Shown here: positions 1 to 36,307 of the stretch, piece by piece
Layout of the letters: each line of letters begins with the position of its first letter
Position numbering within the stretch: position 1 is the first letter of the stretch
From: a virus
Strand: one strand, 5' to 3'
DNA length: 37,731 nt
Virus record (IMG/VR): IMGVR_UViG_3300033153_003363
Coordinates: 1 to 37,731 of that record
Made by a program: the position numbers and the translations under genes
The notes under the pieces: generated by a model
What the model saw: the letters and a program-made list of their open reading frames with translations, nothing else
Database searches by the model: none
Told to the model about the DNA's origin: nothing

Positions 1-114
1 TTAAGGCGAAGAAGATATGAAGATAAGTATATTCGTAGCATTAGGGAATATAGGAAATACACCTGACGATTGGCAGTATGCTTGGCGTGAAGCTATTGAG
101 AGTTATTTAGATTT
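1..114. repeat. Terminal direct repeat, left copy (circular closure)
   Basis: The first 114 bases are identical to bases 37618-37731. The repeat lies inside coding sequence: it holds the end of the methyltransferase that starts at 37074 and the start of the glycosyltransferase at 17. Gene continuity across the join shows that the two ends are the same locus, so this is an assembly overlap of a circular or circularly permuted genome rather than a biological end. Confidence 0.93.
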
Positions 115-904
115 TGCAGATGAGGTGGTTATTGTAAGTGGAAATAATGATACCACTAATTTATTTATAAATAATTTTAGTGGCGAGTGTATGCAAAAGG
201 ATAAAATTAAAATTGTTGAAATGCCGTGGAAATATGACTTTAGTTGGGAAACTATTGCACAGCATTTTAACAAAGGGCTAGAAGCGTGTACTGGGGATTG
301 GATTATGAAAATGGATATTGATTATATTATCCACGAAAGAGATATGAAAACATTAAGGGCTAAGATGTTAGAGGGTTGGAAGAAGAATTACCCATTAATG
401 AGTTTTATGAAATTTACAGTATTAAATAAGGACAAAGCATATGAAAAAGTCCACGTACCATTTATCATCAGAAAAGAAAAGCGAGATGAAATTAGATTTG
501 GAATACCAACAGATGACCATAAGAGTGCGTGGGGGTATCCAATTTTGGTTAAAGGTTTTGACAAGAAACGAGGATTACCCACTGGCACGAGTATCCCAGA
601 CAATTATATAATGAGTACCAGTACACGAATATATAACTATGATAATACATTTAGGAATAAAGAAAAAACAGGTGAACACTTTTTGAGGTTTAGTTTAGCT
701 GGGGAAAGGGCTGGGTTCAATAGGAACTGGGGAAGTACAAGAGAGGAAGCGTTGAATATGTTTTGTAGTATGATGTGGAGTAGAATTAGAAAGACGCAAG
801 AGTGTTATAAACCATTAACACTAGCAGACCACCCTAAGTATATAAGGGAAAGAATTAAAGAATTAACGCCTGATTTATTTGGGCATAGTAGTTGGATAGA
901 TTAA
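17..904 (+). CDS. Glycosyltransferase, GT-A fold, family 2-like
   Basis: A 295-residue protein that probably transfers a sugar from a nucleotide-sugar donor. It opens with a beta strand typical of GT-A enzymes (MKISIFVALGNIG), has a VVIVSGNNDT segment near residue 38, and an acidic metal-binding candidate MDIDYI near residues 98-103 after a GDWI stretch, the usual place of the DxD motif. The C-terminal half is rich in Trp, Tyr and Arg, plausible for acceptor binding. The start ATG overlaps the TGA of the upstream methyltransferase (seen at 37634-37637), so the two are translationally coupled. It belongs to the glycan module. Substrate is unknown; the GT-A assignment is from motif layout only. 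Confidence 0.72.
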   Translation: MKISIFVALGNIGNTPDDWQYAWREAIESYLDFADEVVIVSGNNDTTNLFINNFSGECMQKDKIKIVEMPWKYDFSWETIAQHFNKGLEACTGDWIMKMDIDYIIHERDMKTLRAKMLEGWKKNYPLMSFMKFTVLNKDKAYEKVHVPFIIRKEKRDEIRFGIPTDDHKSAWGYPILVKGFDKKRGLPTGTSIPDNYIMSTSTRIYNYDNTFRNKEKTGEHFLRFSLAGERAGFNRNWGSTREEALNMFCSMMWSRIRKTQECYKPLTLADHPKYIRERIKELTPDLFGHSSWID

Positions 905-905
905 T

Positions 906-1226
906 ATGAACTATAAACTAGCAAAACAACTTAAAGACAGCGGGTATGAATTAACCTGTTGTTCGGAAACAAGCAATCATATTCAAATAGGTAATCAACC
1001 TTATTTAATCCCAACCCTCTCTGAACTTATAGATGCTTGTGGGGAAGAATTTGTTCAATTGTATTATTTTAATGGGAGTAAAGATTGGTGTGCGAGTGGT
1101 GGAATAAATATGCTTAGTAAAGAAAATACTGAAAAACTAAGACAAGGAACTACTACTCAATATAGTGAAATGGGCAAAACCCCAGAAGAAGCAGTAGCTA
1201 AATTATGGTTAAAGTTAAATGTATGA
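906..1226 (+). CDS. Conserved phage hypothetical protein
   Basis: A soluble 106-residue protein. It has the layout of a family common in phages and of unknown function: an N-terminal (A)KQLKDSGY helix, a YLIPTLSELIDACG block around residues 33-46, and a C-terminal TPEEAVAKLWLKLN. These blocks are seen directly; the family link is from memory. It starts 1 nt after the glycosyltransferase stop and overlaps the next gene by 4 nt, so it is co-translated inside the glycan module although nothing in it suggests sugar chemistry. Confidence 0.7.
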   Translation: MNYKLAKQLKDSGYELTCCSETSNHIQIGNQPYLIPTLSELIDACGEEFVQLYYFNGSKDWCASGGINMLSKENTEKLRQGTTTQYSEMGKTPEEAVAKLWLKLNV

Positions 1227-1613
1227 ATATTGATTTGGCGTGTGGTACAGATAAGAAGTTCGGTTATCACGGTATAGACATAGTTGATTATGGGCAACAG
1301 TATATTACCGTTCCATAATGAAACTATAAATAGATTTGACGCTTGGCATATATTTGAGCATTTATATTGGGAAGACGCTAGGAACTTATTATTGGAGTGC
1401 CATAGATGTTTGAATAAAGACGGTAAGATACATATACAAGTACCTGACGGTAATGATGACAAGCAACGAAGACCATATCATATAATACTTTATTCTAAAT
1501 ATTCATTTGATTTTATTAAGGGAAAAGATAATGAGTTTTACAAACTGTTTGGATTAGCAAACGTTTATATAAGTAAATACGATTACATTAATTTTATACT
1601 AGAAAAGAAATGA
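1223..1613 (+). pseudogene. SAM-dependent methyltransferase, broken by a frameshift/small deletion
   Basis: An ATG at 1223 opens a frame with a class I methyltransferase motif I (NIDLACGTDKKFGYHGIDIVDYG) that stops at 1316-1318. The rest of the enzyme continues in the +1 frame to 1613, with the segment FDAWHIFEHLYWEDARNLL, then LNKDGKIHIQVPDG. Compared with the intact paralogue at 4427-5077, about five or six residues between GQQY and LPFHNE are missing, so a deletion of about 16 nt, rather than one base, may be the cause. A downstream ATG at 1290 could still give a protein lacking the SAM-binding loop, which should be inactive. Overlaps with both neighbours (4 nt each) show it was a normal operon member. 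Confidence 0.68.
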
Positions 1614-2173
1614 CATTTTGGGAAACACAAATGGCTCATCAGCCAACTAAGGAATACTACGAAGCAATTAAAGAATACTTTGGTGATACTTTTTATAAGC
1701 CAGGATTAGAGGGCAAAAAGGTATTGGAAATAGGAGTGCAAGAGGGTATATCTACTAGGGCATTTTTAGAACTAGGTGCAGACCTACACTCTGTTGACCC
1801 TGACTTATATCCTAACGCTAAAGAAGTTGTTAAAGATACAGGTAAGAAATGGAAGTATCACGGTATGAAAAGTGACGAATACTTTAAGACCTGTAAAGAT
1901 AAGTTTGACTTAATATACATAGACGGTGACCACCATTATAAAACTACTAAGAGTGATTTGAATAATGCTATGAACCATATTAAGACACCAGGCATTATAG
2001 TAGTACACGATTTTTTACATAATCATAACTTTGATTATAAGCAAAAGAAGTGTGTAGCCGAAAAAGGTTATGGTATAACCCAAGCGTGTTGCGAGTTTTT
2101 AAAAGAGAGAAAACATTTAGTGGCTAAGATAATGCCACCTTATCCTGGATTTTTAATAATTTATATAACATAA
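1610..2173 (+). CDS. Class I SAM-dependent methyltransferase (Methyltransf_24/TylF-like)
   Basis: A 187-residue enzyme expected to methylate a small molecule or a sugar. Motif I is KVLEIGVQEGISTRAFLELGA at about residues 38-58, followed by SVDPD (acidic end of the second strand), DLIYIDGDHHY near residues 102-112, and GIIVVHDF near 135. The IDGDHHY plus VVHDF pair is characteristic of the TylF/Methyltransf_24 group, members of which methylate sugar hydroxyls using a metal held by such Asp residues. This fits the surrounding glycosyltransferases. It overlaps the broken methyltransferase by 4 nt and is the last gene before an internal promoter. Confidence 0.8.
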   Translation: MTFWETQMAHQPTKEYYEAIKEYFGDTFYKPGLEGKKVLEIGVQEGISTRAFLELGADLHSVDPDLYPNAKEVVKDTGKKWKYHGMKSDEYFKTCKDKFDLIYIDGDHHYKTTKSDLNNAMNHIKTPGIIVVHDFLHNHNFDYKQKKCVAEKGYGITQACCEFLKERKHLVAKIMPPYPGFLIIYIT

Positions 2174-2198
2174 TATGAGAATAATGATAACTAGGGTA

Positions 2199-2227
2199 TT
2201 TACATAACTGGGTAATAGGGTTATAAT
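2199..2227 (+). promoter_or_regulatory. Sigma70-type promoter (TTTACA-17-TATAAT)
   Basis: A TTTACA box (2199-2204) and a perfect TATAAT (2222-2227) are separated by 17 nt. It lies in the 83-nt gap between the methyltransferase and the HNH gene, about 30 nt ahead of the HNH start. It can supply the downstream half of the glycan module. Confidence 0.75.
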
Positions 2228-2256
2228 AGAATTATCTAATAAATAACGATAAAACT

Positions 2257-2694
2257 ATGAAACCAAAAGACAAAGGGTTTAAAGCATTACTAGGTACAAG
2301 AGATATAGACGGTAGGTTTATAAAGGGTTATGAGCATACTGATGAGTGGAAAGAACAAAAAGCAGAGCAAATGAAAGGCAATAAGAATTGGGATAATGAG
2401 AAAAGCAAGGCAACCCAGTTTAAAAAAGGGCATAAATCAGTATCACCAAAAGCTGGTAAAACCCACCCAAATTATAAATATGGTGCGAGAGGTGGGCGTG
2501 TATGGAACGAGTGGCGTGATAAGGTACTGGAACAGGCAAACCATAAATGCGAGAAGTGTGAGGGTACTAAGGGGTTAATGGCACACCATATAAAACCACA
2601 CGAAGATTACCCTGAATTGAAGTTTGAAACAAGTAATGGTAAAGCATTATGTGGTAGGTGTCACTTTTATACACATTTTAAACGAATATTATAA
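2257..2694 (+). CDS. HNH endonuclease, probable homing enzyme
   Basis: A 145-residue protein with a zinc-binding HNH domain in its C-terminal half: CEKCEG near residue 99, AHHIKPHEDYPELKF near 108, then NGKALCGRCHFYTH at the end, which is the usual Cys pair, His-His, Asn, Cys pair order. The N-terminal half is basic and has short repeated elements (GNKNW, GHKSVSPKAGKTHPNYKYG) resembling the DNA-binding NUMOD3-type repeats of homing endonucleases. It has its own promoter and interrupts a run of sugar genes, as expected for a selfish endonuclease that inserted there. Confidence 0.82.
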   Translation: MKPKDKGFKALLGTRDIDGRFIKGYEHTDEWKEQKAEQMKGNKNWDNEKSKATQFKKGHKSVSPKAGKTHPNYKYGARGGRVWNEWRDKVLEQANHKCEKCEGTKGLMAHHIKPHEDYPELKFETSNGKALCGRCHFYTHFKRIL

Positions 2695-2709
2695 TTAAAA
2701 ACACTAACT

Positions 2710-4215
2710 ATGAAAATATTAATATGTCCTGACGTTGACGATTGGGCTATCGGTGCATTAACCAAGTCAATCATCAAGTATAATCCTAGATTTAATTTTG
2801 AGAAGATTTGTGTACACCCAAGAGGTATGGCACAAAGTTTTATCTATTTACACGACGCTATTAAAGACGGAATAGATTTATGGCACGGACAGTATTGGAA
2901 TAGTGCGTTGAATATAATCAGGGATATACCTGACTATAAGAACGTACCGAGTTTATTAACACATCAGAACCACGAAAGTTTAGAGAAAAAGGATTGGAAC
3001 GTATTTACTGCGTTAGCACACCCTACCCATTACGGAGTTGATTTATTAAGTAAGAAACATAAACGAGTATTCCATATACCACACGGAATTGACCTTGATA
3101 GATATAGTTGGATTGATGAACCGTGTGAAGAAGATAATATAGGATATGTAGGTAGAGTATTACCACATAAACACCTTGCTGATATTTGTATGGCAGCGAA
3201 GAAACTAGATTACAAAGTAGTTGGGAGTGGTTATGTAGAGAAGATTGATTATTGGAACGAAGCGTGTAAGCCATATTTAGAAGCTGGAACACTTAAATTT
3301 ATTGGTGGTGCTGGGCGAGTTAGTATGTCACCAGCGAATATGAAAGATGACCTATATAGGAAGATGAAAGTATTTGTTATGTATTCTACTGGCGAGAAAG
3401 AAAGTGGTACATTACCATTATTTGAAGCTATGGCGAGAGGAGTGCCAGTTATGGCAACCTCACAAGGTTCTGCTAGGGACTTAATAGAGGACGGTAAGAA
3501 CGGTATCATATTTACGGAAGATAATTTTGAGAAGAAATTAGCCGAAATTATGGAAGATAAAGAGTTGCGTATGAAGATTAGGAAGAACGCTTGGCAGACA
3601 ATTAAGAATTATAGCGACCAACGTTTAGCTAGAAGATACGCCAAAGCATATTATGATGTTGCGTTTAATAGTCAACCTGTTGTATCCGTTATAATCCCTA
3701 CGTTTGAGAGAGCAGAACATTTAGCAGATACAATCCTAAGCGTAGAGAAACAGGATTATATTGCTAAAGAGATTATAGTAGTTGATGACGGTAGTGATGA
3801 TGAGGGTAAGACCAAAATGGTTTGTAATGAATTGAAGAAGAAGATTAAAACACCGTTATTATACCTAAATACTAATGATACAAAGCATTACGGATTGGCT
3901 AAAGCTAGAAATATGGGAGTAGTAGAAAGTTTAGGTGAGGTATTATTATTCCTAGATGACCGTCTTAACCTAGAGGACGGTGCGTTAGAAGAAATAGTTA
4001 CTGTACCAAGTGGAGTGTGGAACTATGGTGCTAAAAGAACTAAAACTGGATTATCAACCAAGCGAACATTTATAGAGAACTTTAGCTGGATTAAGAAGCA
4101 CGATTTTGTACACGGTGGTATGTTTAATGAACGTATGGGTTATTACGGTGGTATGAGCCAAATACTCCGAGAACAGTATAGTCAGAAAGTTGAATTTGTT
4201 AGCAGTAAGGGCTAA
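2710..4215 (+). CDS. Bifunctional glycosyltransferase: GT4 domain fused to GT2 domain, frameshifted near the C-terminus
   Basis: A 501-residue fusion. Residues 1-315 are GT-B/GT4: HIPHGIDLDRY, NIGYVGRVLPHKH near 145, and the E-x7-E-type segment PLFEAMARGVPVMATSQGS near 236. Residues 320-490 are GT2: VVSVIIPTFERAEHL near 323, IIVVDDGSDD near 355, LLFLDDRLN near 412 as the DxD position, and HGGMFNERMGYYGG near 470. The frame closes at 4213-4215, but the +1 frame from about 4199 continues with LAVRAKRGRKSDIWKAK to a stop at 4274-4276, the basic tail expected of GT2 enzymes. That stop would overlap the next gene by 8 nt, as usual here. So one extra base near 4199 is likely. The truncation removes only about 20 residues and may leave activity. 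Confidence 0.82.
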   Translation: MKILICPDVDDWAIGALTKSIIKYNPRFNFEKICVHPRGMAQSFIYLHDAIKDGIDLWHGQYWNSALNIIRDIPDYKNVPSLLTHQNHESLEKKDWNVFTALAHPTHYGVDLLSKKHKRVFHIPHGIDLDRYSWIDEPCEEDNIGYVGRVLPHKHLADICMAAKKLDYKVVGSGYVEKIDYWNEACKPYLEAGTLKFIGGAGRVSMSPANMKDDLYRKMKVFVMYSTGEKESGTLPLFEAMARGVPVMATSQGSARDLIEDGKNGIIFTEDNFEKKLAEIMEDKELRMKIRKNAWQTIKNYSDQRLARRYAKAYYDVAFNSQPVVSVIIPTFERAEHLADTILSVEKQDYIAKEIIVVDDGSDDEGKTKMVCNELKKKIKTPLLYLNTNDTKHYGLAKARNMGVVESLGEVLLFLDDRLNLEDGALEEIVTVPSGVWNYGAKRTKTGLSTKRTFIENFSWIKKHDFVHGGMFNERMGYYGGMSQILREQYSQKVEFVSSKG

Positions 4216-4268
4216 ACGTGGACGTAAGAGTGATATATGGAAAGCTAAAGATATAATTAATAAGATAT

Positions 4269-4394
4269 ATGACTAAATCATTTAGTAGTAAAGATAATGA
4301 CGAAAAAGATATAGATTTTGGATTTGGTATTGGTTGGGGATTTACATTAGGTTTAATGGTATTTGCTATTTATTTATTAATTAATCATTTATGA
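4269..4394 (+). CDS. Small single-pass membrane protein
   Basis: A 41-residue peptide with an acidic N-terminus (SSKDNDEKDIDFGFG) and one hydrophobic segment over residues 19-39, ending NHL. The start ATG overlaps the restored stop of the glycosyltransferase fusion (4276). No function can be assigned; it could tether or help a neighbouring sugar enzyme at the membrane, which is a guess. Confidence 0.55.
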   Translation: MTKSFSSKDNDEKDIDFGFGIGWGFTLGLMVFAIYLLINHL

Positions 4395-4426
4395 GAAATA
4401 GAATTTAAATAATTAGAATAGGATAT

Positions 4427-5077
4427 ATGATTGATTATTGCAACTATACTAAAAAAACAAAATTTTTACCTAGAGATACATTAAATGGAAAGCCTTGCTT
4501 TTGGACAGAGGATAGGCATTATCGTTCATTTTGTGCTAATTGTGGTAATTCACATATCCTTAGTTCAATACCTCCTAATTCTCAATTAGTTAAATCACCA
4601 TTTGATGTAGATGAATGTAAGGCACACTTTCCTGATAAGAATGGAGTTATAAATCATATTGGAGATTGTCAAAAAATAAAAAGAATTGAATTAGGTTGTG
4701 GAAAAACACCGAGAGACGGCTATGATGGAATAGATGAACAAGATTTTGGGCAATTATATAAAGCAGATGTATTAGCAGTATTAACTAAATTTAAAGATAA
4801 TAGTGTTGATGAGATATACGCTAGTCATTTTTTTGAACATTTATATCCCGATAAAGTAATTGATACTCTTATCCAAGTGTATAGGGTATTAAAAATAAAT
4901 GGTCAGCTATGGATTATAGTACCTCACAAAGAACACGAAAGAGCTAATGTACTTTGGCACAGAACATTTTTCACAGAGTTTACATTTAGTGATTACTTCA
5001 GAAATGATAAATGGCAGATAATAGAGTTAGTTACTAATAGTAGAAAGGATATACATTGTAAAGTAATAAAATTATGA
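4427..5077 (+). CDS. SAM-dependent methyltransferase with Cys-rich N-terminus
   Basis: A 216-residue protein. Residues 1-75 hold scattered cysteines including SFCANCGNSH, perhaps a metal site. The methyltransferase core follows: RIELGCGKTPRDGYDGID near residue 86 (motif I), KADVLAVLTKFKDNSVDEIYASHFFEHL near 110-138, VLKINGQLWIIVPH near 155. The same EHL plus VP-H pattern occurs in the broken enzyme at 1223, so the two are relatives. Its stop overlaps the next start by 4 nt. A sugar or lipid-linked glycan is the likely substrate given the neighbours; this is inference. Confidence 0.78.
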   Translation: MIDYCNYTKKTKFLPRDTLNGKPCFWTEDRHYRSFCANCGNSHILSSIPPNSQLVKSPFDVDECKAHFPDKNGVINHIGDCQKIKRIELGCGKTPRDGYDGIDEQDFGQLYKADVLAVLTKFKDNSVDEIYASHFFEHLYPDKVIDTLIQVYRVLKINGQLWIIVPHKEHERANVLWHRTFFTEFTFSDYFRNDKWQIIELVTNSRKDIHCKVIKL

Positions 5078-5325
5078 AGAAAATAGAAAAAATGATGCTT
5101 AAAGAAGCAAAAAGACTTAAAAAAACAAAAGAGGTTGAGTATTGTAAACCAAATTGTGTTGAATGTTTAATCGCTACTGCTAAAAGTGTTATTGATGAAA
5201 AATTAGATATTGAAATGTCTACAATAGATTTTGTATATAGTATGTGTGGCGAGGCAACAATGGGAACAGATTTTATAATGCTTGATTTAATAAGAAAGAT
5301 AAAAAGTAGAAAATTAAAAATATGA
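5074..5325 (+). CDS. Small hypothetical protein
   Basis: An 83-residue soluble protein, strongly basic at both ends (KKIEKMMLKEAKRLKKTKE and KIKSRKLKI) with a YCKPNCVEC cysteine cluster near residues 23-31. It overlaps both neighbours by 4 nt. I do not recognise a family. Confidence 0.6.
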   Translation: MKKIEKMMLKEAKRLKKTKEVEYCKPNCVECLIATAKSVIDEKLDIEMSTIDFVYSMCGEATMGTDFIMLDLIRKIKSRKLKI

Positions 5326-6014
5326 TAGGAGTATTTATATTAACAATAGGACAAGAAACCGAGAAAGAAGCAATCGCTAGTATTAAAAATCAAGTTGATG
5401 ATGTTCAGATTATAAGAAATGTATCACCAGCTAATAAAGCAGAAAATTTAGGATTTAAATTAGCTGAAGAATATAACTACGATTATTTTATGTTCTTAGG
5501 TGCTGATACTATACTGAAACCAAATGCTATAAAGGTTATAATGTCTTATATGACAGATGAATTATGGTGTGTAATGGGAAGACTAGAAGATTACTGGCGT
5601 GGCACAGAGGATTATGCTAATCACTTATATAGTCTGAAAGCGTTAAAAGGATACAGGGTTAATGAAACAGATTTAATGTATGACCATAGAATACATTGGG
5701 ATATGGAAAAGAAGGGGTATAAAAAAGTAGTTACTAAAGAGGTTATAGGTAAACATCACCCAGTTTGGACTGTTAGAGAAGCATTTGAAAAACATTTATT
5801 TAGTGGCAAGAGATATAAAGAAAAAGATTTTAAGAAGTATTTTGACCAAGTTGTTAAGCGATATAAGGAAAACCCTTGCGAAGTTAATCGTGCTGCTAAG
5901 ATTGGTTTTCAATTAGGCATAGGTGCTAATGCTGAACCACTAACAAACAAAGAAACTAAAGAGTGGAAAGATAATAAAAAGAATTTTAAAATTAATGATA
6001 AATTAGTATGGTAA
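5322..6014 (+). CDS. Glycosyltransferase, GT-A/family 2-like
   Basis: A 230-residue protein with the start of a GT2 fold (MIGVFILTIGQETEKEAIASI), then NVSPANKAENLGFKLAEE near residues 37-54, where N-x-N/A-x-N-G-F is typical of GT2 nucleotide binding, and YFMFLGADTILKPNAIK near 62-78 where GADT stands in the place of the DxD motif. The second half carries conserved-looking HHP and WTVREAFEKHLF segments. It overlaps both neighbours (4 and 7 nt). Only one acidic residue is obvious at the metal site, so activity may depend on another Asp or Glu. Confidence 0.72.
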   Translation: MIGVFILTIGQETEKEAIASIKNQVDDVQIIRNVSPANKAENLGFKLAEEYNYDYFMFLGADTILKPNAIKVIMSYMTDELWCVMGRLEDYWRGTEDYANHLYSLKALKGYRVNETDLMYDHRIHWDMEKKGYKKVVTKEVIGKHHPVWTVREAFEKHLFSGKRYKEKDFKKYFDQVVKRYKENPCEVNRAAKIGFQLGIGANAEPLTNKETKEWKDNKKNFKINDKLVW

Positions 6015-7057
6015 AGAAGAAACTTAAAATAGTAGCAACTACCTGGCACGTGATGCATTGGTTTGACTTTTTCAACGCATTAAAAGATGACGCACACTTT
6101 TTCTTAATTGATAACCCGGCAAAGGAGTGGCGCAGAGAGGAATACCTAGCTAGTCGTCCTATACCGAATAACGTAACCTTTGTACCATACTACGAAAAGG
6201 GGAAATATGACTTTGCCATTCTTAATGTTGACCAACAATGTATTAATCCTAAACTAGGTAAGTCGCAAGTAGTAATGGATTTGAATGCCGAGATACAAGA
6301 CATTCCAAAAATATTTATAAATCACGCTACACCTGTCTATCCTGAATTTGTATCTGAACCCGATATGACCAAAGAGCAAGAAGAAGAAATTGTTAGGAAT
6401 AAGATTAAACAAATAGTTGGTGATAACTTAATGGTCGTCAATAGCTATAAGGCAGTAGAGGAATGGGGTAGTCAATTTAGAAATGTTGTACCTATTTGGC
6501 ACGGCATATCTGCTGATGAGTGGTTTCCGTTACCGAAAGAACCCAGAGTAGCGACTGCTGTATCTGCTGGTGGTTGTGATGAATACTATAATCGTATGAT
6601 AATGAATAAAGTGTCAACAGATTTACCAATACAAAATGGACATATACTTTGGTGGGCTAAGCGCAATACTTCAAAGTTATTCCGTATGGGTGATACATTT
6701 ACTAAGAGGGAAAACTATCAGAAGTTTTTAGGTAAATCACTTCTCTACTTAGACCTTACTTATCGTACACCTATGAATAGAGGTAGAACTGAAGCTATGT
6801 TATCTGGTTGTTGTGTAGTACAGATTGAGGGCGCACACGACCTAGAGAAATTTGCAGTACATAATGAGAATATGATTATTGTTCCAAATAATATGGAGAT
6901 TATATTAACTACCCTAAATGTATTACTTGAAAGTGAATACGAGAAGTGTGTAGAGATAGGTAAGAACGCTAGGAAGACAGCTATGAAATTATTTAACAGA
7001 GAACAGTACCGTAAAAGTTGGCTTGATTTAATTAACAATAAAATACTAACGAAATAA
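6008..7057 (+). CDS. Glycosyltransferase, GT-B fold (GT4-like)
   Basis: A 349-residue protein organised as a two-domain GT-B enzyme. The N-terminal Rossmann domain starts KIVATTWHVMHWFDFFNAL and includes DIPKIFINHATP near residue 100. The linker has VPIWHGISADEWFP near 160, equivalent to the HGID element of GT4. The C-terminal domain contains TPMNRGRTEAMLSGCCVVQIEG near 255, matching the GT4 E-x7-E region. It closes with EIGKNARKTAMKLFNREQYRKSW, a standard GT4 ending. The 7-nt overlap with the gene before it indicates coupling. Confidence 0.76.
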   Translation: MVKKKLKIVATTWHVMHWFDFFNALKDDAHFFLIDNPAKEWRREEYLASRPIPNNVTFVPYYEKGKYDFAILNVDQQCINPKLGKSQVVMDLNAEIQDIPKIFINHATPVYPEFVSEPDMTKEQEEEIVRNKIKQIVGDNLMVVNSYKAVEEWGSQFRNVVPIWHGISADEWFPLPKEPRVATAVSAGGCDEYYNRMIMNKVSTDLPIQNGHILWWAKRNTSKLFRMGDTFTKRENYQKFLGKSLLYLDLTYRTPMNRGRTEAMLSGCCVVQIEGAHDLEKFAVHNENMIIVPNNMEIILTTLNVLLESEYEKCVEIGKNARKTAMKLFNREQYRKSWLDLINNKILTK

Positions 7058-7061
7058 ATAT

Positions 7062-7202
7062 ATGACTAAATATAAAATATTAATGGGTGACGAAGATGAA
7101 CTAAAAATATTAGTAGAAACAGCTTTAGAAGCAGGGTGGTCGTTGCAGGGTGGGGTTATTTTCTGTCAACATAACACATTCGCACAAACAATGGCTAAAT
7201 AA
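7062..7202 (+). CDS. DUF1737-like small protein
   Basis: A 46-residue protein with the layout of DUF1737: YKILMGDEDELKILVETAL, then EAGWSLQGGVIF, and a C-terminal FAQTMAK. The tryptophan after AG and the GG pair are the recognisable features. Members occur alone or next to unrelated genes; the role is unknown. Confidence 0.62.
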   Translation: MTKYKILMGDEDELKILVETALEAGWSLQGGVIFCQHNTFAQTMAK

Positions 7203-7221
7203 TTAATACTAAAGAAATAAT

Positions 7222-7581
7222 ATGAACGCATACTATGTATCAATAAAATATTATGATTATAGTCAATCTGGTAATTATAATTCACAAAACTATAATGGAC
7301 TATTATCTTCTATGTCAAGTTGTGATGGAAGTATAAGTGGTAAGAATAGTAATATTAAGATTGGTTACTTTAACAAGGAAGACGCTGAAAATGTTATGAA
7401 AGAATACTCTAAAATGCTTAATGATGAAATGATAACGGCTTGTAATATATATGGAGAATTAATAATGTTAAGAAGTAAACAGGTTATTTCTATTTCAGTT
7501 AGTAATAATGAATTTAATGTAACAACAGTAGAACCAGAACCAAAATTAATTAATTCTAAAAATTATTTTAAAAAAATATGA
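7222..7581 (+). CDS. Hypothetical protein
   Basis: A 119-residue soluble protein. Residues 10-50 are rich in Tyr, Ser, Asn and Gly, suggesting a flexible loop, followed by a mixed helix-strand region with KEDAENVMKEYSKML. No family recognised. Its stop overlaps the next glycosyltransferase by 4 nt, so it is co-translated with it. Confidence 0.55.
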   Translation: MNAYYVSIKYYDYSQSGNYNSQNYNGLLSSMSSCDGSISGKNSNIKIGYFNKEDAENVMKEYSKMLNDEMITACNIYGELIMLRSKQVISISVSNNEFNVTTVEPEPKLINSKNYFKKI

Positions 7582-8426
7582 ATGTATCATTTTTAACTTT
7601 CGAACGCTATCACGGAAGAGCTAAAGGCACTATCGGTTCATCACAGATTAGGGCAAGGTGGCTAGTAGAGAAGTGGGACGAAGCTAAGCTATGGACAGTT
7701 GGTCAGAAGTTTGACGCTCTTATTCTACAAAAGGTTTATTGGGAACAGATGATTAATGACTTTAAGGGAGTTAAGATATTAGATTTATGCGACCCTGATT
7801 GGCTCAATGGTGATGTTGAGATAGTAGATGTAATGAAAAGAGTTGACCACGTAACCACATCAACAGAGGGCTTAGCTAAGTATCTTGGTCAGATGACTAA
7901 GACACCAATAACCGTTGTGCCTGATAGATTGAATATGGATTACTTCACAGAACAGAGAGAGCACACAGAGAGAGCAAGAAACGTAGTATGGTTTGGGTAT
8001 TATCATAATGCCAAGCAAGTATTAAACGCACCATTATTACAGAGCTTGAAAATGCGTGGATTAGGATTGACCGTTGTAAGTAATGCAGACTATTTACCAG
8101 CTAATGATATGGGAGTTAATATACAGAATATAAATTGGACACCTGAAAATGCTTATATGGATATTAAGAGTGGTGATTTTGCTATTAATCCACCGAGTAT
8201 GACTAGAGGGTTTAGATTTAAGAGTAATAATAAAACATTAATTGCTTGGGCGTTAGGATTACCTGTTGCTAATACTGCTGATGAAATGGATAAGTTTATT
8301 AATCCTGATGAACGTAACAAGGAAGTTAAAATACGTATGGAAGAAATTAAAAAAGATTGGACAGTAGAAAAATCAATAGAACAATATAAACAAATACTAT
8401 GCAAAGTAGAACAAACGAAGAAATAA
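7578..8426 (+). CDS. Glycosyltransferase, GT-B fold, short GT4-like
   Basis: A 282-residue protein shorter than a typical GT4 enzyme (about 350-380). Visible elements are GSSQIRARWLVEKW near residue 19, LDLCDPDWLNGD near 73, HVTTSTEGLAKYL near 94 and TPITVVPDRLNMDYF near 112, the linker between domains, then VVWFGYYHNAKQ near 136, which corresponds to the G-x-x-x-x-K loop that begins the donor domain. The Glu-rich E-x7-E region is replaced by KSNNKTLIAWALGLPVANT near 214, with Asn-Lys where the first Glu usually lies. It is the last enzyme of the glycan module before the structural block. Confidence 0.72.
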   Translation: MNVSFLTFERYHGRAKGTIGSSQIRARWLVEKWDEAKLWTVGQKFDALILQKVYWEQMINDFKGVKILDLCDPDWLNGDVEIVDVMKRVDHVTTSTEGLAKYLGQMTKTPITVVPDRLNMDYFTEQREHTERARNVVWFGYYHNAKQVLNAPLLQSLKMRGLGLTVVSNADYLPANDMGVNIQNINWTPENAYMDIKSGDFAINPPSMTRGFRFKSNNKTLIAWALGLPVANTADEMDKFINPDERNKEVKIRMEEIKKDWTVEKSIEQYKQILCKVEQTKK

Positions 8427-8640: not shown

Positions 8641-8654
8641 TTGTTAATTAACAA
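8641..8654. promoter_or_regulatory. 14-bp perfect palindrome in the late leader (possible operator)
   Basis: TTGTTAATTAACAA is its own reverse complement. It sits 32 nt after the -10 box of the late promoter and 16 nt before the portal ATG. It could bind a dimeric regulator just inside the transcript or form a weak hairpin; the sequence cannot decide. Confidence 0.5.
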
Positions 8655-8670
8655 TTTTCAGTTTATTATT

Positions 8671-10908
8671 ATGGGTAAAATACAAGAATACATTAGAAGT
8701 GCATTGGGCATTAAGACAGAAACAAAGGAAGCCGAAGTACCTTTTGTACCTATTAATGGTATTGGTACAGCGCAACAAAGTTTAGATAAGTCAGCATTAT
8801 TGGAACAATATAAGGGGTGGACATACGCTGCAGTTAGCAAAATTGCTAGTGATTGTAGTAATGTAGAGGTTACATTAAATAAAATGGACGCTAACGGTAA
8901 CGTAGAGGTAATAAAGCAACACGAAGTATTGGATTTGCTTGATTTTGTTAATCCTTTTTCTACTTATGCAGATTTAGTTGAGACAACTATTATGTATAAG
9001 AAGTTAGCTGGAGATAGTTTTTGGTTATTATTTAAGAAAAACAATAAGCCAGTAGAGATATGGCAATATTTACGACCAGACTTAATGGGAGTAGTTCCTA
9101 GTAAGACTGATTTTATTGCTGGTTATACATATAAAGTGCCAGGCGAGGGGAATATAGTTAAGTTTAATGTAGATGATATTATAATGTTTAAAGACCCTAA
9201 CCCACTTGACCCTTATCGTGGAGTTAGTCCTGTAAAAGCAGCCGAATTTGCTATTGCTACTGATGTTAAGGCGAAAGAGTGGAACTTTACTTTCTTTAAT
9301 AATTCAGCTAGACCTGATACAGTATTTAGTTTTGATGAGGGTATAGACGAAACACAGGCAAAACAACTGAAAACACAATGGGAAAATGCCCATAGAGGTA
9401 CTGCTCACTCCCAAAGAACAGCATTTATTAGTAAAGGTAAGGTGCAACAGGTTGGTATGAGCCAAAAGGATATGGACTTTTTAGAGCAGAGAAAGTTTAG
9501 TAGAGATGAGATATTGGCTATGTTTAAAGTACCGAAAGCCCTATTAGACCCACAGGAATTGAATTTTGCGAGTGCTAAGACAGCTAAGGACGTATATTAT
9601 GAGGGTGTCATTGAACCTGAAATGCGTAGATTTGTTGGTACATTAAATGAATTTCTATTACCGTTTTACGGTGGTGATAGTTTATTTTTTGACTTTGTAA
9701 GTCCGAGAGAAGCTGATAGAGATATGGTATTAAAATCATATGAGGTATTAAGTATGGTTGGTGCTATAACACCTAATGAAATTAGGCAATCAGAGGGATT
9801 TGAACCGATTGAGGGTGGTGATGATATTATGGGAGTTGATGAAACTGAAGTATTAAATGCAGAGGGTAAGGGAAAAAAGAAGAAATATAATATAAGAGTT
9901 AGAAGTAGGAGTACATCTGCCGAAGCGTTAGCTGATATTAAAGAGAAGTTAAGAGATACTGACGCATTTAAGATTAAAGAGAAATTAGTATTAAAACCCA
10001 AGATGAGTAAATCTGAACACGAGAAGTTTGGAGAACGATATTGGACTAAACAAATATATAAACTAGATAAAGAAGAAGAAAAGTTTAAGAAAGAACTTGA
10101 TAAGGAATTTGATAGACAAGAAAAGCAAACATTAAAACAACTTGCTGGTAAGAGTGTTAGTGATGTTAACTTTGATTTAGGCGAGGAAACTAAAATATTT
10201 AGAAAAACATTTAGACCAGCAGTTACAGCTTTGATTGCGTTTAGTGGTGAAGACGCTTTGGGTGATTTGGGATTAGACGGATTTGATGTAGATAAAAATA
10301 TACAGGCATATATTATGAGTGACGGATTAGAGTTTTGCAAAGGAGTAAATGAAACTACTAAAAATAAAATTAATAAACAAATTGCAGACGGTGTTGCCAA
10401 TGGTGAGGGTACTAAAAAGATTGCTAAAAGAATTACTGGTATATATGCAGAAGCTAAGACAAGTAGAGCAAATAATATTGCAAGGACAGAGGTTGCTAAG
10501 TCAACCGAGTATGGAACATTAGAAGCGTGGAAACAGAGTGAGGTAGTTGAGAGTAAAGAGTGGTTTACTGCTTTAGATGAAAGGGTATGCCCAATATGTA
10601 TGCCTTTACACGGTAAGACAACCAAATTAAATAAAGATTTTTCTGCGACTGACGGATTTGGATTAGTTGAAACACCACCAGCACATCAACAATGTCGCTG
10701 TGTAATATTACCTGTAACGATTACTAAGCAACAACAAATGCTTAACTTGAAAAAGAAAGAGAAAGAATTAGAGCAAGTTATTCAGGAAAATAAAGATAAG
10801 ACTGATGAAGCAGTTAAAGAGGTTAAGGTAAATGCTGGAAAAGAATTAGAAGATTTAAGAACAGTTAAAGACAAATTAAATAAGATAGTAGATGAGCAAG
10901 GCGACTAA
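8671..10908 (+). CDS. Portal protein fused to a MuF/SPP1 gp7-like head morphogenesis domain
   Basis: I choose the ATG at 8671 (745 residues, MGKIQEYIRSALG) over a TTG at 8641 that would lie inside the palindrome. Residues 1-390 are an HK97-family portal: YKGWTYAAVSKIASD near 45, DDIIMFKDPNPLDPYRGVSP near 165, RDEILAMFKVPKALL near 280, and ITPNEIRQSEGFEPIEGGD near 365. It makes the dodecameric DNA gate of the capsid. After a charged linker, residues from about 595 on form a MuF domain: NIARTEVAKSTEYG, EWFTALDERVCPICMPLHGKT, PPAHQQCRCVILP. MuF proteins act in head assembly or are injected. A coiled coil ends the chain. The single-chain fusion is less common than two separate genes. Confidence 0.92.
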   Translation: MGKIQEYIRSALGIKTETKEAEVPFVPINGIGTAQQSLDKSALLEQYKGWTYAAVSKIASDCSNVEVTLNKMDANGNVEVIKQHEVLDLLDFVNPFSTYADLVETTIMYKKLAGDSFWLLFKKNNKPVEIWQYLRPDLMGVVPSKTDFIAGYTYKVPGEGNIVKFNVDDIIMFKDPNPLDPYRGVSPVKAAEFAIATDVKAKEWNFTFFNNSARPDTVFSFDEGIDETQAKQLKTQWENAHRGTAHSQRTAFISKGKVQQVGMSQKDMDFLEQRKFSRDEILAMFKVPKALLDPQELNFASAKTAKDVYYEGVIEPEMRRFVGTLNEFLLPFYGGDSLFFDFVSPREADRDMVLKSYEVLSMVGAITPNEIRQSEGFEPIEGGDDIMGVDETEVLNAEGKGKKKKYNIRVRSRSTSAEALADIKEKLRDTDAFKIKEKLVLKPKMSKSEHEKFGERYWTKQIYKLDKEEEKFKKELDKEFDRQEKQTLKQLAGKSVSDVNFDLGEETKIFRKTFRPAVTALIAFSGEDALGDLGLDGFDVDKNIQAYIMSDGLEFCKGVNETTKNKINKQIADGVANGEGTKKIAKRITGIYAEAKTSRANNIARTEVAKSTEYGTLEAWKQSEVVESKEWFTALDERVCPICMPLHGKTTKLNKDFSATDGFGLVETPPAHQQCRCVILPVTITKQQQMLNLKKKEKELEQVIQENKDKTDEAVKEVKVNAGKELEDLRTVKDKLNKIVDEQGD

Positions 10909-15321: not shown

Positions 15322-15325
15322 AAAT

Positions 15326-15858: not shown

Positions 15859-15859
15859 G

Positions 15860-16252: not shown

Positions 16253-16253
16253 A

Positions 16254-16691: not shown

Positions 16692-16704
16692 GAAAGGAAA
16701 ATAT

Positions 16705-32099: not shown

Positions 32100-32421
32100 A
32101 GAACCAAAAAAGCTAGATAATAGTAGCAAACAACTTGAACGTGATGAAAATGGTAGGTTATTACCAGGTCAAAAGAGTTTAAATCCAACTGGAAGACCAG
32201 AGGGCAGTCTATCATTTACCACTGAAATAAAGAAATACCTTAGAAAAAACCCTGATAAGTTTTATGAGATACTACATTACTACGTTGATAATAAGAAGAT
32301 GAGAGATTTACTTTGGAAGATGATAGACGGACAACCTAAGCAGAACCTCGGCTTTGGTGATGATGAGGACGGTAAGTATGAGGTAGATATTAAGATACGC
32401 AAAAATGAAGATAAATCTTGA
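32092..32421 (+). CDS. Terminase small subunit-like DNA-packaging protein
   Basis: A 109-residue protein directly before the large terminase and overlapping it by 17 nt. GQKSLNPTGRPEGSLSF near residues 29-45 resembles the GRPKGS element at the N-terminus of several small terminase or terminase-associated families, followed by a helical domain and an acidic-basic tail. It would recognise the packaging start. Assignment rests on position and this motif; I do not see a clear helix-turn-helix. Confidence 0.68.
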   Translation: MSEEPKKLDNSSKQLERDENGRLLPGQKSLNPTGRPEGSLSFTTEIKKYLRKNPDKFYEILHYYVDNKKMRDLLWKMIDGQPKQNLGFGDDEDGKYEVDIKIRKNEDKS

Positions 32422-33556
32422 AACTACGGAAGTATTTGAAAAGAATTATACAGCATACCAAAGTGAAATAAGGAACATAGTTAATCAGGGTGGTAGTAGA
32501 AGTAGTAAGACATATTCAATAGCACAACTGTTTCTGATAGCAGCTTTAAAACAAAAGAATATAGTGCTGTCGGTAGTTCGTAAAACGTTACCAGCTTTGA
32601 GAGCTACGGCTATGAGGGATTTTTTTGACATACTAAAGACGGCTGGAATATATAGAGAAGAACGGCACAACAAGACAGAACTGATTTACCGTATGCCTAG
32701 TGGGAGTGAGATAGAGTTTTTTTCAACAGACCAACCGAGAAAGGTGCGTGGACGAACACGACAATATTTATGGCTTAATGAAGCTAATGAATTTACCCTA
32801 GAGGATTATAGGCAGTTGAATATGCGTACTAAGAAACAGGTGTATATGGATTATAACCCTAGCGACCAGTTCAGTTGGATATACGACCACGTGATACCGA
32901 GAAAAGATACTACCGTTATTAAATCAACCTATAAAGATAATCCGTTCTTAGAGAAAGAGATTGTTAAAGAGATTGAGAGGTATAAGGGGTTAGATGATAA
33001 TTACTGGCGTATCTATGGACTAGGTGAGGTTGGTGTATCGGAAACTGTTATTTATAAGAACTGGGAGTATTGCGATAGCTTACCTGAAGAATATGATGAT
33101 GAGTTTTACGGATTGGACTTTGGGTACAATAACCCTAGTGGATTGGTACAGATACGAACCAAAGATAAAGTACCTTATGTTAGAGAGTTGCTATACGAAA
33201 GTTATTTAACTAATAGTCAGTTGATTGAGAAGATGAAAACATTTGATATGGGATATAAGTACATTTACCCTGATAGTGCTGAACCACAAAGGATTGAGGA
33301 GTTGAAGAAAGCTGGGTTTAATTGTAAGTCGGCAGATAAAGATGTAAGTAAGGGAATTGATACGGTTAAGTCACAGAAGTTATTTATAACTAAGGACAGC
33401 GTTAATTTACTAAAAGAAATAAAATCATATTCTTATAAGAAGAAAGATGAATTGGTATTAGATGAGCCAGTTAAAGCTAATGACCATTTGTTAGACGCTA
33501 TGAGATATGGAATACACACTAATAATTTAACAATAAAACCAGGAATATTTATATGA
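32405..33556 (+). CDS. terL: Terminase large subunit (PBSX/XtmB-like)
   Basis: A 383-residue ATP-driven packaging motor and nuclease. Walker A-like GGSRSSKT at residues 29-36, Walker B with catalytic Glu in YLWLNEANEF near 120, and a motif III-like MDYNPSD near 150. The nuclease domain shows GLDFGYNNPSG near 238 (first Asp), YPDSAEPQRIEELKKAG near 283 (second Asp), and ANDHLLDAMRYG near 358 (third Asp). It is a short but complete member of its family. Unusually, the gene after it is not the portal but the glycan module. Confidence 0.95.
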   Translation: MKINLETTEVFEKNYTAYQSEIRNIVNQGGSRSSKTYSIAQLFLIAALKQKNIVLSVVRKTLPALRATAMRDFFDILKTAGIYREERHNKTELIYRMPSGSEIEFFSTDQPRKVRGRTRQYLWLNEANEFTLEDYRQLNMRTKKQVYMDYNPSDQFSWIYDHVIPRKDTTVIKSTYKDNPFLEKEIVKEIERYKGLDDNYWRIYGLGEVGVSETVIYKNWEYCDSLPEEYDDEFYGLDFGYNNPSGLVQIRTKDKVPYVRELLYESYLTNSQLIEKMKTFDMGYKYIYPDSAEPQRIEELKKAGFNCKSADKDVSKGIDTVKSQKLFITKDSVNLLKEIKSYSYKKKDELVLDEPVKANDHLLDAMRYGIHTNNLTIKPGIFI

Positions 33557-33873
33557 AGAACGTAGATATAGAACCAAAAGAGTATTTAAAGATTTTAGAG
33601 GATTTAAAAAAGAATAACAAAAAAGAGATAGTTATTGTAGAGGTACAGCTTGAAATGGGAGTAGAGATGCTAGAGAAAGCTAAGGTAGAAGATGAGAAAG
33701 CCAATAAGGATAAAAAAGAAGATGAGAAAAAAGAGGGTGGTGAAAAGGCAATAGGGATTAAGATGAAAATGGACGCCTTTGAAGCACAAAGACAAGAGAT
33801 GTATATGGGACTAAAATTTATCAATAAAAAGATAGATGAAGTATCTAAGACAATTAAAAACGAAGAAGCATAA
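33553..33873 (+). CDS. Charged coiled-coil protein
   Basis: A 106-residue, Lys/Glu-rich helical protein with EKAKVEDEKANKDKKEDEKK in the middle and a C-terminal helix (MYMGLKFINKKIDEVSKT). It overlaps terminase by 4 nt and the deacetylase by 38 nt, the longest overlap but one in the window. Function unknown. Confidence 0.6.
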   Translation: MKNVDIEPKEYLKILEDLKKNNKKEIVIVEVQLEMGVEMLEKAKVEDEKANKDKKEDEKKEGGEKAIGIKMKMDAFEAQRQEMYMGLKFINKKIDEVSKTIKNEEA

Positions 33874-34498
33874 AGACATAATCATAACTACTTCGTGGGA
33901 CGATTTTACGGAGTATGATGAAAAGCTTTTTGAGTTGTTAAATGAATACCACATACCAGCGACTTTCTTTATACCATATAAGGAAATAACAAAACCAAAG
34001 TCATTAGTATTAGCAAAGAAGATTTTAAGGGATTACGAGATAGGTAGCCATACCATAAATCACCCCCAAGATTTAAAGAAGTTAGATAGTACAGACTTAT
34101 ATGACGAGGTTGCTGGTAGTAAACAATTACTAGAAGATATATTAGGAACAGAGGTAACTAGCTTCTGTTATCCGAGAGGTAGATATAACCAAGAAGTTAT
34201 AGAAGCTATTAAGGAAGCTGGTTATATGAGAGCAAGAACGACTAAGGTAGGTAATACGAATATTGAGTGCAACCCATTTGAGATTGAAACAACCGTACAC
34301 GCATACAGTGGTAGGACAGAATATAAGACATTTGGTAGTTGGATAGAATATGCCTTACCAAAATTAGATTATGTTATGACGTGTGGGGGTTACTTTCATC
34401 TATGGGGTCACTCACTAGAGATTGAGAAACACGGTGAGTGGACAAACTTAAATTGGTTTTTAAATTATTTACACGAAAGAATAAAAGAATATGAGTAA
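33836..34498 (+). CDS. Polysaccharide deacetylase (NodB/CE4 domain)
   Basis: A 220-residue enzyme that should remove acetyl groups from N-acetylated sugars. TTSWDDFTEYDEKLFELL near residue 18 holds the catalytic Asp and the metal-binding Asp, YEIGSHTINHPQDLKKL near 65 has the H-x3-H metal ligands, FCYPRGRYNQEV near 107 is motif 3 (RxxxxG-like), and GYFHLWGHSLE near 185 has the catalytic His. It has no signal peptide, so it acts in the cytosol, on lipid-linked or virion-bound sugars. First gene of the glycan module. Confidence 0.88.
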   Translation: MKYLRQLKTKKHKDIIITTSWDDFTEYDEKLFELLNEYHIPATFFIPYKEITKPKSLVLAKKILRDYEIGSHTINHPQDLKKLDSTDLYDEVAGSKQLLEDILGTEVTSFCYPRGRYNQEVIEAIKEAGYMRARTTKVGNTNIECNPFEIETTVHAYSGRTEYKTFGSWIEYALPKLDYVMTCGGYFHLWGHSLEIEKHGEWTNLNWFLNYLHERIKEYE

Positions 34499-34646
34499 GA
34501 AAGAAATTTCTAACTTCATTAATCTAACGGAAGTATTGTTGGAACAGGACTTGGAAAAGTCCGACCACGAAGACAAAAAAGTTTATAAAAAAGTAGTCAA
34601 CGATATTTTTACTTACATTAATGAAAAGTTAGACAAATATGATTAA
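34491..34646 (+). CDS. Small acidic helical protein
   Basis: A 51-residue protein (SKKEISNFINLTEVLLEQDLEK, DHEDKKVYKKVVNDIFTYI) overlapping its neighbours by 8 nt each. Function unknown. Confidence 0.58.
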   Translation: MSKKEISNFINLTEVLLEQDLEKSDHEDKKVYKKVVNDIFTYINEKLDKYD

Positions 34647-35532
34647 AATACACTTAGCCAACGAGAGCAAACAGGGAATTGGTGGGGGTTGGACATTTCT
34701 TAATAACCTAGAAGAAAGTATGAGGTTATTAAAGGCTAATGTTAAGTTTACTAGTGGTGCTAGTATGGTCACTAGAGAGAGTGTACAACTAGCAAAAAAG
34801 GACGGGAAGAAAATAATATTAAGAGTTGATAACATACCTCGTAATTCAAGGAATAGAAATTGTGGTACAACCCGTTTATATGATATGGCTCAACTTGCTG
34901 ATTGGGTTGTTTTTCAATCGGAGTGGGCGAAGAAGAAAGTGATGCCATTATTGGATAGCTATAACACAGAAATATCTAGTAGGCATAATAAGTATATGTA
35001 TGGGGTTGAGAAGAAGAATAAGTTTTTCTGTGAGTGTACTTCAAGCATTATATTAAACGGAGTTAACACCCACATATTCAAACCAAGTGGTGAAAAGCTA
35101 AAAAGCACATTTAAGAAGCGATACCTAATTGTAAGGTTCAATAGGGACAATAATAAGCGACTTGAAGAAGCACTAGATATGTATTCTGAAAAGTGGTTAT
35201 TAGATACCAATATAGACCTATATATAGTTGGACAATATAGCCGAGAACTTGTTGCTGGTTATTTTGATTTTTATATGGGTGAACGATTTACTATGCACGG
35301 AGTAGTAGAGAATAGGTCGCAACTATCAGCGTTATATCGTAGTTGTGATGTTTTATTATATCCAAGTTATTCTGACGCCTGTCCGAATACCGTACTTGAA
35401 GCACGTGCTTGTGGTTTAGAAGTATGGCACAAAGGACACGCTGGAATACCTGAAGTAATGACGGAAAAGGATATTACATTAGAACGTATGGGTAGAGAAT
35501 ATTTAACCCTTTTTAATAAGTTATTAGAATGA
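34639..35532 (+). CDS. Glycosyltransferase, GT-B fold (GT4)
   Basis: A 297-residue enzyme. The N-terminal part has KQGIGGGWTFLNNLEESM near residue 11, the Gly-rich loop after the first strand of GT4, ADWVVFQSEWAKKKV near 88, and SIILNGVNTHIFKPSG near 136. The C-terminal domain has YLIVRFNRDNNKRLEEAL near 160 (donor-site R-x4-K), RFTMHGVVENRSQLSALYRSCDVLLYPSYSDACPNTVLEARACG near 215-260 with the E-x7-E-like segment, and AGIPEV. All GT4 landmarks are present. Confidence 0.87.
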   Translation: MIKIHLANESKQGIGGGWTFLNNLEESMRLLKANVKFTSGASMVTRESVQLAKKDGKKIILRVDNIPRNSRNRNCGTTRLYDMAQLADWVVFQSEWAKKKVMPLLDSYNTEISSRHNKYMYGVEKKNKFFCECTSSIILNGVNTHIFKPSGEKLKSTFKKRYLIVRFNRDNNKRLEEALDMYSEKWLLDTNIDLYIVGQYSRELVAGYFDFYMGERFTMHGVVENRSQLSALYRSCDVLLYPSYSDACPNTVLEARACGLEVWHKGHAGIPEVMTEKDITLERMGREYLTLFNKLLE

Positions 35533-36307
35533 TATTACTAACAGGACATTTAGGATTTATCGGTAGCCGACTAGCAGAGAAGCTAGATGAATTTGTCGGT
35601 GTTGATATTTTAAGTGGCGAAGACATATTAGATAAGCGCAGAATGGAATTTGTATTTGAAACGGAGAACATAGATACGGTTATTCATACGGCAGCATTAA
35701 CTGGTGTAAGACGTGGAGAATTATACCCTGAAGAATATTTTGATACTAATGTAATTGGAACGAAGAACCTTATTGACCTAAGTGAGAAGTATGGGGTAAA
35801 GAAGTTTATTCACTTTAGTCATCAAGTGTTAAGGGTGATAGTATCTATGGTATGTCTAAACTAGCTGGTGAAACAATAGCAGAAAGGTCAAAGATAGATA
35901 TAGTAAATATCATCAGACCGTTTACAGTTATTGGTTGCAACGGAAGACCTGACCAAGTAATTATGAAGTGGTTAAATAGATTAGCAGAGGGTAAGCCGAT
36001 TTATATTCACGGGTTTGATACAAACAGAAACTTCACTTATGTTGGTGATGTAGTTGAATTTGTAGTAACTGATTTATTATCACCACAGGATAATTATTCA
36101 AGTGATATATATGAACTATGCAATCCGAATAGTATTAATTTAAGAGAATTGTTAGATATATTTCAAAAACATTTTAAAGATATAGATTGGAAAGATATTG
36201 GGTTACAAGAGGGTGAGCCAAAAGAGAGTATAGGAGAGTGGAACGCATTATTTAAGGCGAAAGACAATAGAGAAGTAATTAATAATATTATTAAAGAAAG
36301 TTTATGA
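35529..36307 (+). pseudogene. NAD-dependent epimerase/dehydratase (extended SDR), split by a one-base frameshift
   Basis: The first frame (35529-35864) begins with ILLTGHLGFIGSRLAE, the NAD-binding G-x2-G-x2-G motif, and continues through DTVIHTAALTGVRRGE to KKFIHFS, then goes out of frame at about 35819. In the -1 frame the sequence reads on as SSSVKGDSIYGMSKLAGE, supplying the Ser of the catalytic triad and the Y-x3-K pair, then IVNIIRPFTVIG and NFTYVGDVVEF to the stop at 36307. Inserting one T at 35819 restores a full enzyme of about 259 residues. No slippery heptamer is present. It should make or change a nucleotide sugar (epimerase, dehydratase or similar). Confidence 0.82.

Follow-up and report, generated by a model that had tools for sequence, protein, structure and literature searches.

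The DNA studied here is IMG/VR virus record IMGVR_UViG_3300033153_003363, analysed at its full length of 37,731 bases (the window), and the subject is a block of glycan-assembly genes, the glycan module, that adjoins its portal gene. Because the first and last 114 bases are identical (a terminal repeat), the window reads as a circle. On that circle the module occupies 33836–37637 and 17–8426, about 12.2 kb or roughly one third of the genome. Its sugar genes, about 13 in all, encode one deacetylase, five or six glycosyltransferases (GTs), an epimerase split in two, a nucleotide-sugar dehydrogenase and four methyltransferases; one HNH gene (2257) and three small open reading frames (ORFs) without assignment are also present. 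All lie on one strand and many neighbouring genes share 4-bp ATGA overlaps, a packing as in a translationally coupled operon. A preliminary description of the window had proposed such a module, its continuation across the circle and its share of one third of the genome. All three have been borne out: the module by Pfam, PHROGs, structure models and a gene order repeated on independent contigs, and the continuation by Pfam matches of the deacetylase, GT4, epimerase, UDP-glucose/GDP-mannose dehydrogenase and methyltransferase of the 33836–37637 half. The run of sugar genes had also been called almost unbroken, which holds for the most part and is slightly generous, because the ORFs at 906, 5074 and 7222 are unassigned and an HNH gene sits at 2257.

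The glycan module in the window

The features are listed in their order on the circle. Profile names are followed by E values, and group counts refer to the 45 groups of related loci (see below) with at least 9 kb upstream. The gene labels behind these counts are iterative hidden Markov models with E up to 1e-4.

32405..33556, +, large terminase (TerL), left neighbour of the module in the window; phrog_2 5e-46
33836..34498, +, CE4/NodB-type polysaccharide deacetylase; PF01522 1.4e-21; label in 26/45 groups
34639..35532, +, GT4-type glycosyltransferase (GTa); PF13692 2e-10; label in 32/45 groups
35529..36307, +, NAD-dependent nucleotide-sugar epimerase/dehydratase in two ORFs (35529–35864, 35852–36307); PF01370 1e-18 and 9e-9
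36304..37077, +, short UDP-glucose/GDP-mannose dehydrogenase-type enzyme; PF00984 7e-17, PF03721 8e-11; label in 25/45 groups
37074..37637, +, S-adenosylmethionine (SAM) methyltransferase (MTa); PF13489 2.9e-7; label in 39/45 groups
17..904, +, GT2-type glycosyltransferase; PF00535 (Glycos_transf_2) 2.9e-6, above cut-off; label in 26/45 groups
906..1226, +, small ORF in the module; no Pfam match, no relative among the loci
1223..1613, +, SAM methyltransferase, frame-broken; motif I MNIDLACGTDKKFGYHGIDIVDYG, methyltransferase family link
1610..2173, +, SAM methyltransferase (Methyltransf_24); PF13578 8.5e-16
2257..2694, +, HNH endonuclease, likely homing, within the module; PF01844 1.9e-4
2710..4215, +, two-domain GT4-GT2 glycosyltransferase; PF00534 1.9e-17, PF00535 2.7e-17; label, which may take in single-domain GT4s, in 45/45 groups
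4427..5077, +, SAM methyltransferase (Methyltransf_11); PF08241 6e-6, phrog_6636 6e-18
5074..5325, +, small ORF; no match, 4-bp overlap with both neighbours
5322..6014, +, probable GT2-type glycosyltransferase; PF00535 0.0019, below cut-off; few relatives
6008..7057, +, GT6008, GT-B fold GT4-type glycosyltransferase; family profile, model, viral homologues
7222..7581, +, ORF; no match, no relative among the loci
7578..8426, +, GT7578, GT-B fold glycosyltransferase-like protein adjoining the head genes; model, phrog_7162, viral homologues
8641..10908, +, portal with MuF-like C-terminal part, right neighbour of the module; phrog_2662 5.6e-114

The DD, HxxxH and YPxG motifs of the deacetylase were read in the sequence as TSWDD, GSHTINH and FCYPRG. 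The epimerase is a single unsplit ORF in the relatives L018 and L178. L018 also holds counterparts of the dehydrogenase (86% identical), the GT4-GT2 protein of 2710 (81%) and the methyltransferase of 1610 (74%). The dehydrogenase retains the catalytic-Cys motif GYCFPKD and showed no match to the C-terminal substrate-binding domain; this short form, of 257–278 residues, was seen again in relatives. Five GTs had been predicted at 17, 2710, 5322, 6008 and 7578, of which four are supported by Pfam, family or fold models and 5322 stays probable. The two domains claimed for 2710 were recovered as Pfam GT4 and GT2 domains, and the methyltransferases predicted at 1223, 1610 and 4427 are confirmed by Pfam for the latter two and by motif I for the first. 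The profile searches, which would have refuted the module by placing most of these proteins outside the GTs and methyltransferases, did not do so. The HNH genes of the window (2257–2694 and 30850–31551) recur at varying places in and around many module loci, which is the pattern expected of homing genes, and they might help to move module genes.

Recurrence, signature genes and host link

Related loci were collected from viral contigs, at least 80 by alignment of GT7578 and at least 78 by alignment of GT6008, and were merged into groups at 90% amino-acid identity. Nearly all were picked by one of these two genes, so that GT6008 and GT7578 are ascertained in them, while the portal, the GT4-GT2 gene and the others are not. 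The GT6008/GT7578 module was found in at least 151 loci forming at least 101 groups. Both genes are present in 92 groups, always with GT6008 ahead of GT7578 and in 82 of them within two genes of it. In 90 of the 101 groups GT7578 has the portal on its downstream side, which places the GT genes beside virion structural genes. The loci of the lineage hold a median module span of 9.5 kb with 8 labelled genes. Their unlabelled module ORFs include methyltransferases (FkbM among them), sulfotransferase, adenosine phosphosulfate (APS) kinase, aminotransferase, nucleotidyltransferase and radical-SAM/SPASM domains.

The position of the terminase varies. In 35 groups TerL lies between GT7578 and the portal; 4 groups, the window and L018 have it upstream of the module. 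Three separately modelled TerL groups occur among the module loci. The insertion between large terminase and portal first described is therefore true of the window and is a minority layout; the same order was met again in the left part of L018 and in the 4 groups, and most relatives differ. The steady neighbour of the module is the portal, not the terminase. Likewise, the sugar-gene load, first called extreme, is so when set against GenBank phages, where GT6008 and GT7578 have no homologue, but is normal in its own uncultivated lineage. Divergence of GT7578 follows that of the portal (Mantel test, Spearman r 0.77, n 84, permutation maximum 0.18), as does divergence of GT6008 (r 0.66, permutation maximum 0.17) and of GT4-GT2 (0.68), and these correlations fit a long co-inheritance. 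Scans based on the portal gave few relatives, as only short peptide patterns were used. Among those found in this way, without the GTs, L082–L085 and L094 carry the module; the remaining ones, mostly more remote, are without it and show a plain terL-portal order. Since the module recurs in about 100 distinct groups of uncultivated phages, it looks like an inherited core trait. These comparisons suggest that it has been passed down vertically as a core block in a large lineage of uncultivated tailed phages, where it lies just upstream of the portal-protease-capsid genes.

The two signature genes lie closest to the portal and were the most difficult of the module to assign. GT6008 alone reaches a Pfam GT4 value of 0.0015, below the cut-off, while 37 of 39 members of its family match the Glycos_transf_1 profile. 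Its AlphaFold2 model has a predicted local distance difference test (pLDDT) value of 91.6, and the best fold match is 7qsg_A (Z 26.1, root-mean-square deviation (rmsd) 3.8, 301 aligned residues). The EX7E motif of GT6008 is incomplete: the second Glu, E262 in RTEAMLSG, is invariant and the first position is not conserved as Glu. GT7578 has no Pfam match itself, and almost none was found among 45 relatives; it matches phrog_7162 (GT) at 9.9e-9. Its model (pLDDT 95.2) gives Z 22.2 to BshA 6d9t with rmsd 2.7 over 266 aligned residues. In GT7578 the EX7E motif is absent and a conserved K-S-x-N-K stretch (FKSNNKT..AWALGLPV) stands in that place, with K215 and N218 invariant in 45 sequences. The GT-B fold is thus common to both proteins and to 7qsg (methylmannose polysaccharide mannosyltransferase) and BshA, both GT4 enzymes, although identity is only about 12–14% and the EX7E motif differs as described. 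The prediction of GT6008 as a GT4/GT-B glycosyltransferase holds by profile and fold, and that of GT7578 as a GT-B fold glycosyltransferase-like protein, with predicted activity, holds by its model. A tblastn search of 50,697 GenBank phage records, mycobacteriophages included, gave no match to GT6008 or GT7578, and for GT4-GT2 2710 GenBank phages gave weak partial matches only.

A link to a cellular host came from L245 (also L249–L252), the most firmly anchored of the relatives, which lies on contig DOQH01000013.1 (78.6 kb) of a Candidatus Magasanikbacteria metagenome-assembled genome (MAG). This contig carries apparent bacterial chromosomal genes to about 43.8 kb (ATP synthase subunits, tRNA synthetases, primase and MreB, as judged by eye from their translations). 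Next to them is a phage that carries the complete module along with terminase, portal and tail genes and runs to near a tRNA-Gly at 77.6 kb; one flank only is captured. IMG/VR record 2626541986_000002 (IMG 2626541986) is 99.98% identical to DOQH01000013.1 over 15.6 kb and may share source data. Magasanikbacteria (Patescibacteria) would thus be the first host link for the lineage, by way of the L245 relative and not of the window itself, in a group about whose phages little is known. When 287 genomes of the phylum of Magasanikbacteria were searched with GT6008, the only strong match was in this known prophage; the others were short and partial, as expected of generic GT4 enzymes. Further MAG matches, in Nitrospirae and Granulicella, are on contigs that are not clearly anchored to a host. 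One of them, the Granulicella contig L243 (PLOU01000082.1, 12 kb), has the string dehydrogenase-GT4-GT6008-GT7578-GT4 next to an RHS-repeat protein, with no gene recognised as that of a phage, and this string may be a cellular version of the core pair, either its source or a recipient.

A putative virion glycan

The favoured reading is that a methylated glycan is assembled in the cytosol and put on virion proteins, and about as much can be said for it as against it. The module enzymes would work in the cytosol of the infected host, where uncommon sugars would be prepared or trimmed by the dehydrogenase, epimerase and deacetylase, joined by the GT2, GT4, GT4-GT2, GT6008 and GT7578 enzymes, and capped by the methyltransferases. 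The product would be a short methylated oligosaccharide placed on virion proteins at particle assembly. Variable accessory genes (other methyltransferases, sulfotransferase, aminotransferase, nucleotidyltransferase) may vary the decoration between phages, with the core left unchanged. The phage would likely gain more stable particles, better adhesion, or an outer surface unlike that of its rivals that evades recognition.

Hydropathy analysis found two or more transmembrane segments in none of the labelled module proteins of the window and the 45 groups. The flippase family PF01943 (Polysacc_synt) was met in 0 of 38 records, with the control matched in 13 of 14 genomes, and the initiating phosphoglycosyltransferase PF02397 (Bac_transf) likewise in 0 of 38, with the control matched in 9 of 14. 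The apparently soluble enzymes, the lack of carrier or export genes and the accessory decoration enzymes suggest that a glycan with variable decoration is assembled in the cytosol, and a virion protein appears the likeliest acceptor because the block travels with head genes. Use on the virion or on the host surface is not settled by sequence, and the soluble, carrier-free enzyme set leans towards the virion. Put more broadly and somewhat more tentatively, a lineage of uncultivated tailed phages, some infecting Patescibacteria, may carry a near-complete cytosolic glycan pathway in its head-gene region, with a virus-made, virus-variable glycan as a standard part of its particles.

Several points weigh against a virion glycan. 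No such glycan has been seen on any particle, and virion proteins are putative acceptors. A host carrier lipid and flippase could substitute, and the absence of export genes is no proof. GT7578 is without both EX7E glutamates and GT6008 keeps only the second, so activity is not assured, and neither matched any GenBank phage, mycobacteriophages among them. Co-inheritance with the portal would be seen for any core gene, and the frame breaks of the window, if real, would weaken the pathway. A fibre encoded between portal and protease was rejected as the general acceptor, since an ORF of at least 100 residues is present there in only 17 of 56 groups. The window protein at 10892–12253 has relatives in module loci and no Pfam match. 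In L244 the protein after the portal (15292–17055) has a collagen-like G-X-Y start and is a possible glycan-bearing head fibre.

Phage glycosylation is known from other systems. Freeman et al. (2023), as cited in PMC12619734, have reported glycans on the capsid and tail tube subunits of mycobacteriophage virions, and PMC11256854 gives two annotated GTs for mycobacteriophage Maravista. Phage-encoded GTs are common to those phages and the module. However, the mycobacteriophages have one or two GTs as annotated, whereas the module, known here from genes alone, comprises about 13 sugar genes, among them those for a deacetylase, a dehydrogenase and methyltransferases. O-antigen conversion cassettes (gtrA-gtrB-gtr) are likewise phage-carried GTs, and the GT2 domain of 2710 resembles GtrB-like PHROGs. 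In contrast to gtrABC, with its flippase and membrane-anchored GtrB, the module has no membrane proteins among its labelled genes and adjoins head genes, and it differs from a Wzx/Wzy-type cluster in that its records are without PF02397 and PF01943. Sugar genes (nucleotide-sugar and GT genes) have also been reported in phages of Patescibacteriota and in groundwater phages of ultra-small bacteria (PMC12911398, PMC10980836); a related phage is joined here to a Magasanikbacteria contig. The available excerpts of these two papers list individual genes, whereas the module is one syntenic, co-inherited, portal-tied block. In the open-access literature, reports on phage GTs and on sugar genes of Patescibacteria phages were found, but none of a portal-linked multi-enzyme glycan block. 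Phage GTs, mycobacteriophage virion glycans and Patescibacteria-phage sugar genes are thus known already, and what appears new is a conserved block of this kind beside the portal of many uncultivated phages. Sugar genes in phages tend to be regarded as scattered auxiliary genes, whereas those described here form a conserved sugar-assembly block of about 9–12 kb that is inherited together with the adjacent portal gene. Should the glycan indeed sit on the particle, we know of no more elaborate glycosylation of virions among small tailed phages, and the GT6008-GT7578-portal string would be a marker for finding such phages.

Alternative explanations and frame breaks

Remodelling of the host surface is unlikely but has the most in its favour among the alternatives. 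The enzymes would alter an envelope glycan (S-layer or surface polysaccharide) of the infected cell or lysogen, with carrier and export given by the host, and thereby keep rival phages from adsorbing or new particles from binding again after release. The diversity of the sugar set (methyltransferases with FkbM among them, sulfotransferase, aminotransferase, nucleotidyltransferase) is like that of bacterial surface-antigen clusters, the Granulicella contig suggests that GT6008-GT7578 can sit in a cell-type cluster, and in one case a phage of this lineage is contiguous with a host chromosome. The Patescibacteriota phage study takes nucleotide-sugar genes as aids to surface adhesion (PMC12911398). 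This explanation is opposed by the 38 records free of flippase and initiating transferase, by labelled genes that include no gtrA/gtrB-like membrane proteins, and by a block that is tied to head genes and not to an integrase or attachment site.

That the module is passenger cargo, a host-derived glycan cluster serving auxiliary metabolism with no fixed particle role and decaying in the window, is improbable. Its support lies in the frame breaks. The epimerase is broken near 35830 and the GT4-GT2 gene 2710 near its C-terminus at about 4200, where the last 25–30 or so residues of the relatives lie in another frame, to about 4273. When 58 proteins of close relatives that match the window well were compared, frame changes were seen in these two genes only. 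A third gene, the methyltransferase of 1223–1613, is probably broken as well, judging from its reading frames, which change in the stretch from about 1223 to 1284: motif I MNIDLACGTDKKFGYHGIDIVDYG begins at 1223, and the remainder (EHL...KDGKIHIQVPD) is in another frame from about 1284. At each break a few tens of bases seem to be missing in comparison with relatives or family. Assembly indels, decay or phase variation could each account for the breaks, and the core genes are open across at least 101 groups, with fixed order and portal-like divergence, which argues against a passenger.

DNA hypermodification, in which the GTs would glycosylate modified bases of the phage DNA, is more improbable still. 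For both the GT6008 and the GT7578 model, the fold matches of lower rank include T4 alpha-glucosyltransferase, and base glycosylation by virus GTs is known (cited in PMC12619734). The window also has a short (196 residues) C5-cytosine methylase-like gene at 26707–27297, of which only the first 78 profile positions match and which is perhaps truncated. The route through hydroxymethylated bases was rejected, as the thymidylate synthase/hydroxymethylase family was found in none of 38 records while the control matched in 9 genomes; Tet_JBP dioxygenase was found in none of 46 records, with the control genomes silent too. The deacetylase, the several small-molecule-type methyltransferases and the sulfotransferases are moreover unlike known schemes. 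An assembly chimera of a bacterial glycan cluster and a phage genome, the join that the preliminary description had named as its possible undoing, is practically out of the question and was rejected, since independent contigs keep the gene order, both edges and the seam: L018, a separate contig with a terL 77% identical, repeats terL-deacetylase-GT4-epimerase-dehydrogenase-methyltransferase-GT2-methyltransferase-GT4GT2 in order, the right end GT6008-GT7578-portal is repeated in L100, L101, L178 and L179, and the circle seam of the window is spanned in L018 and L178.

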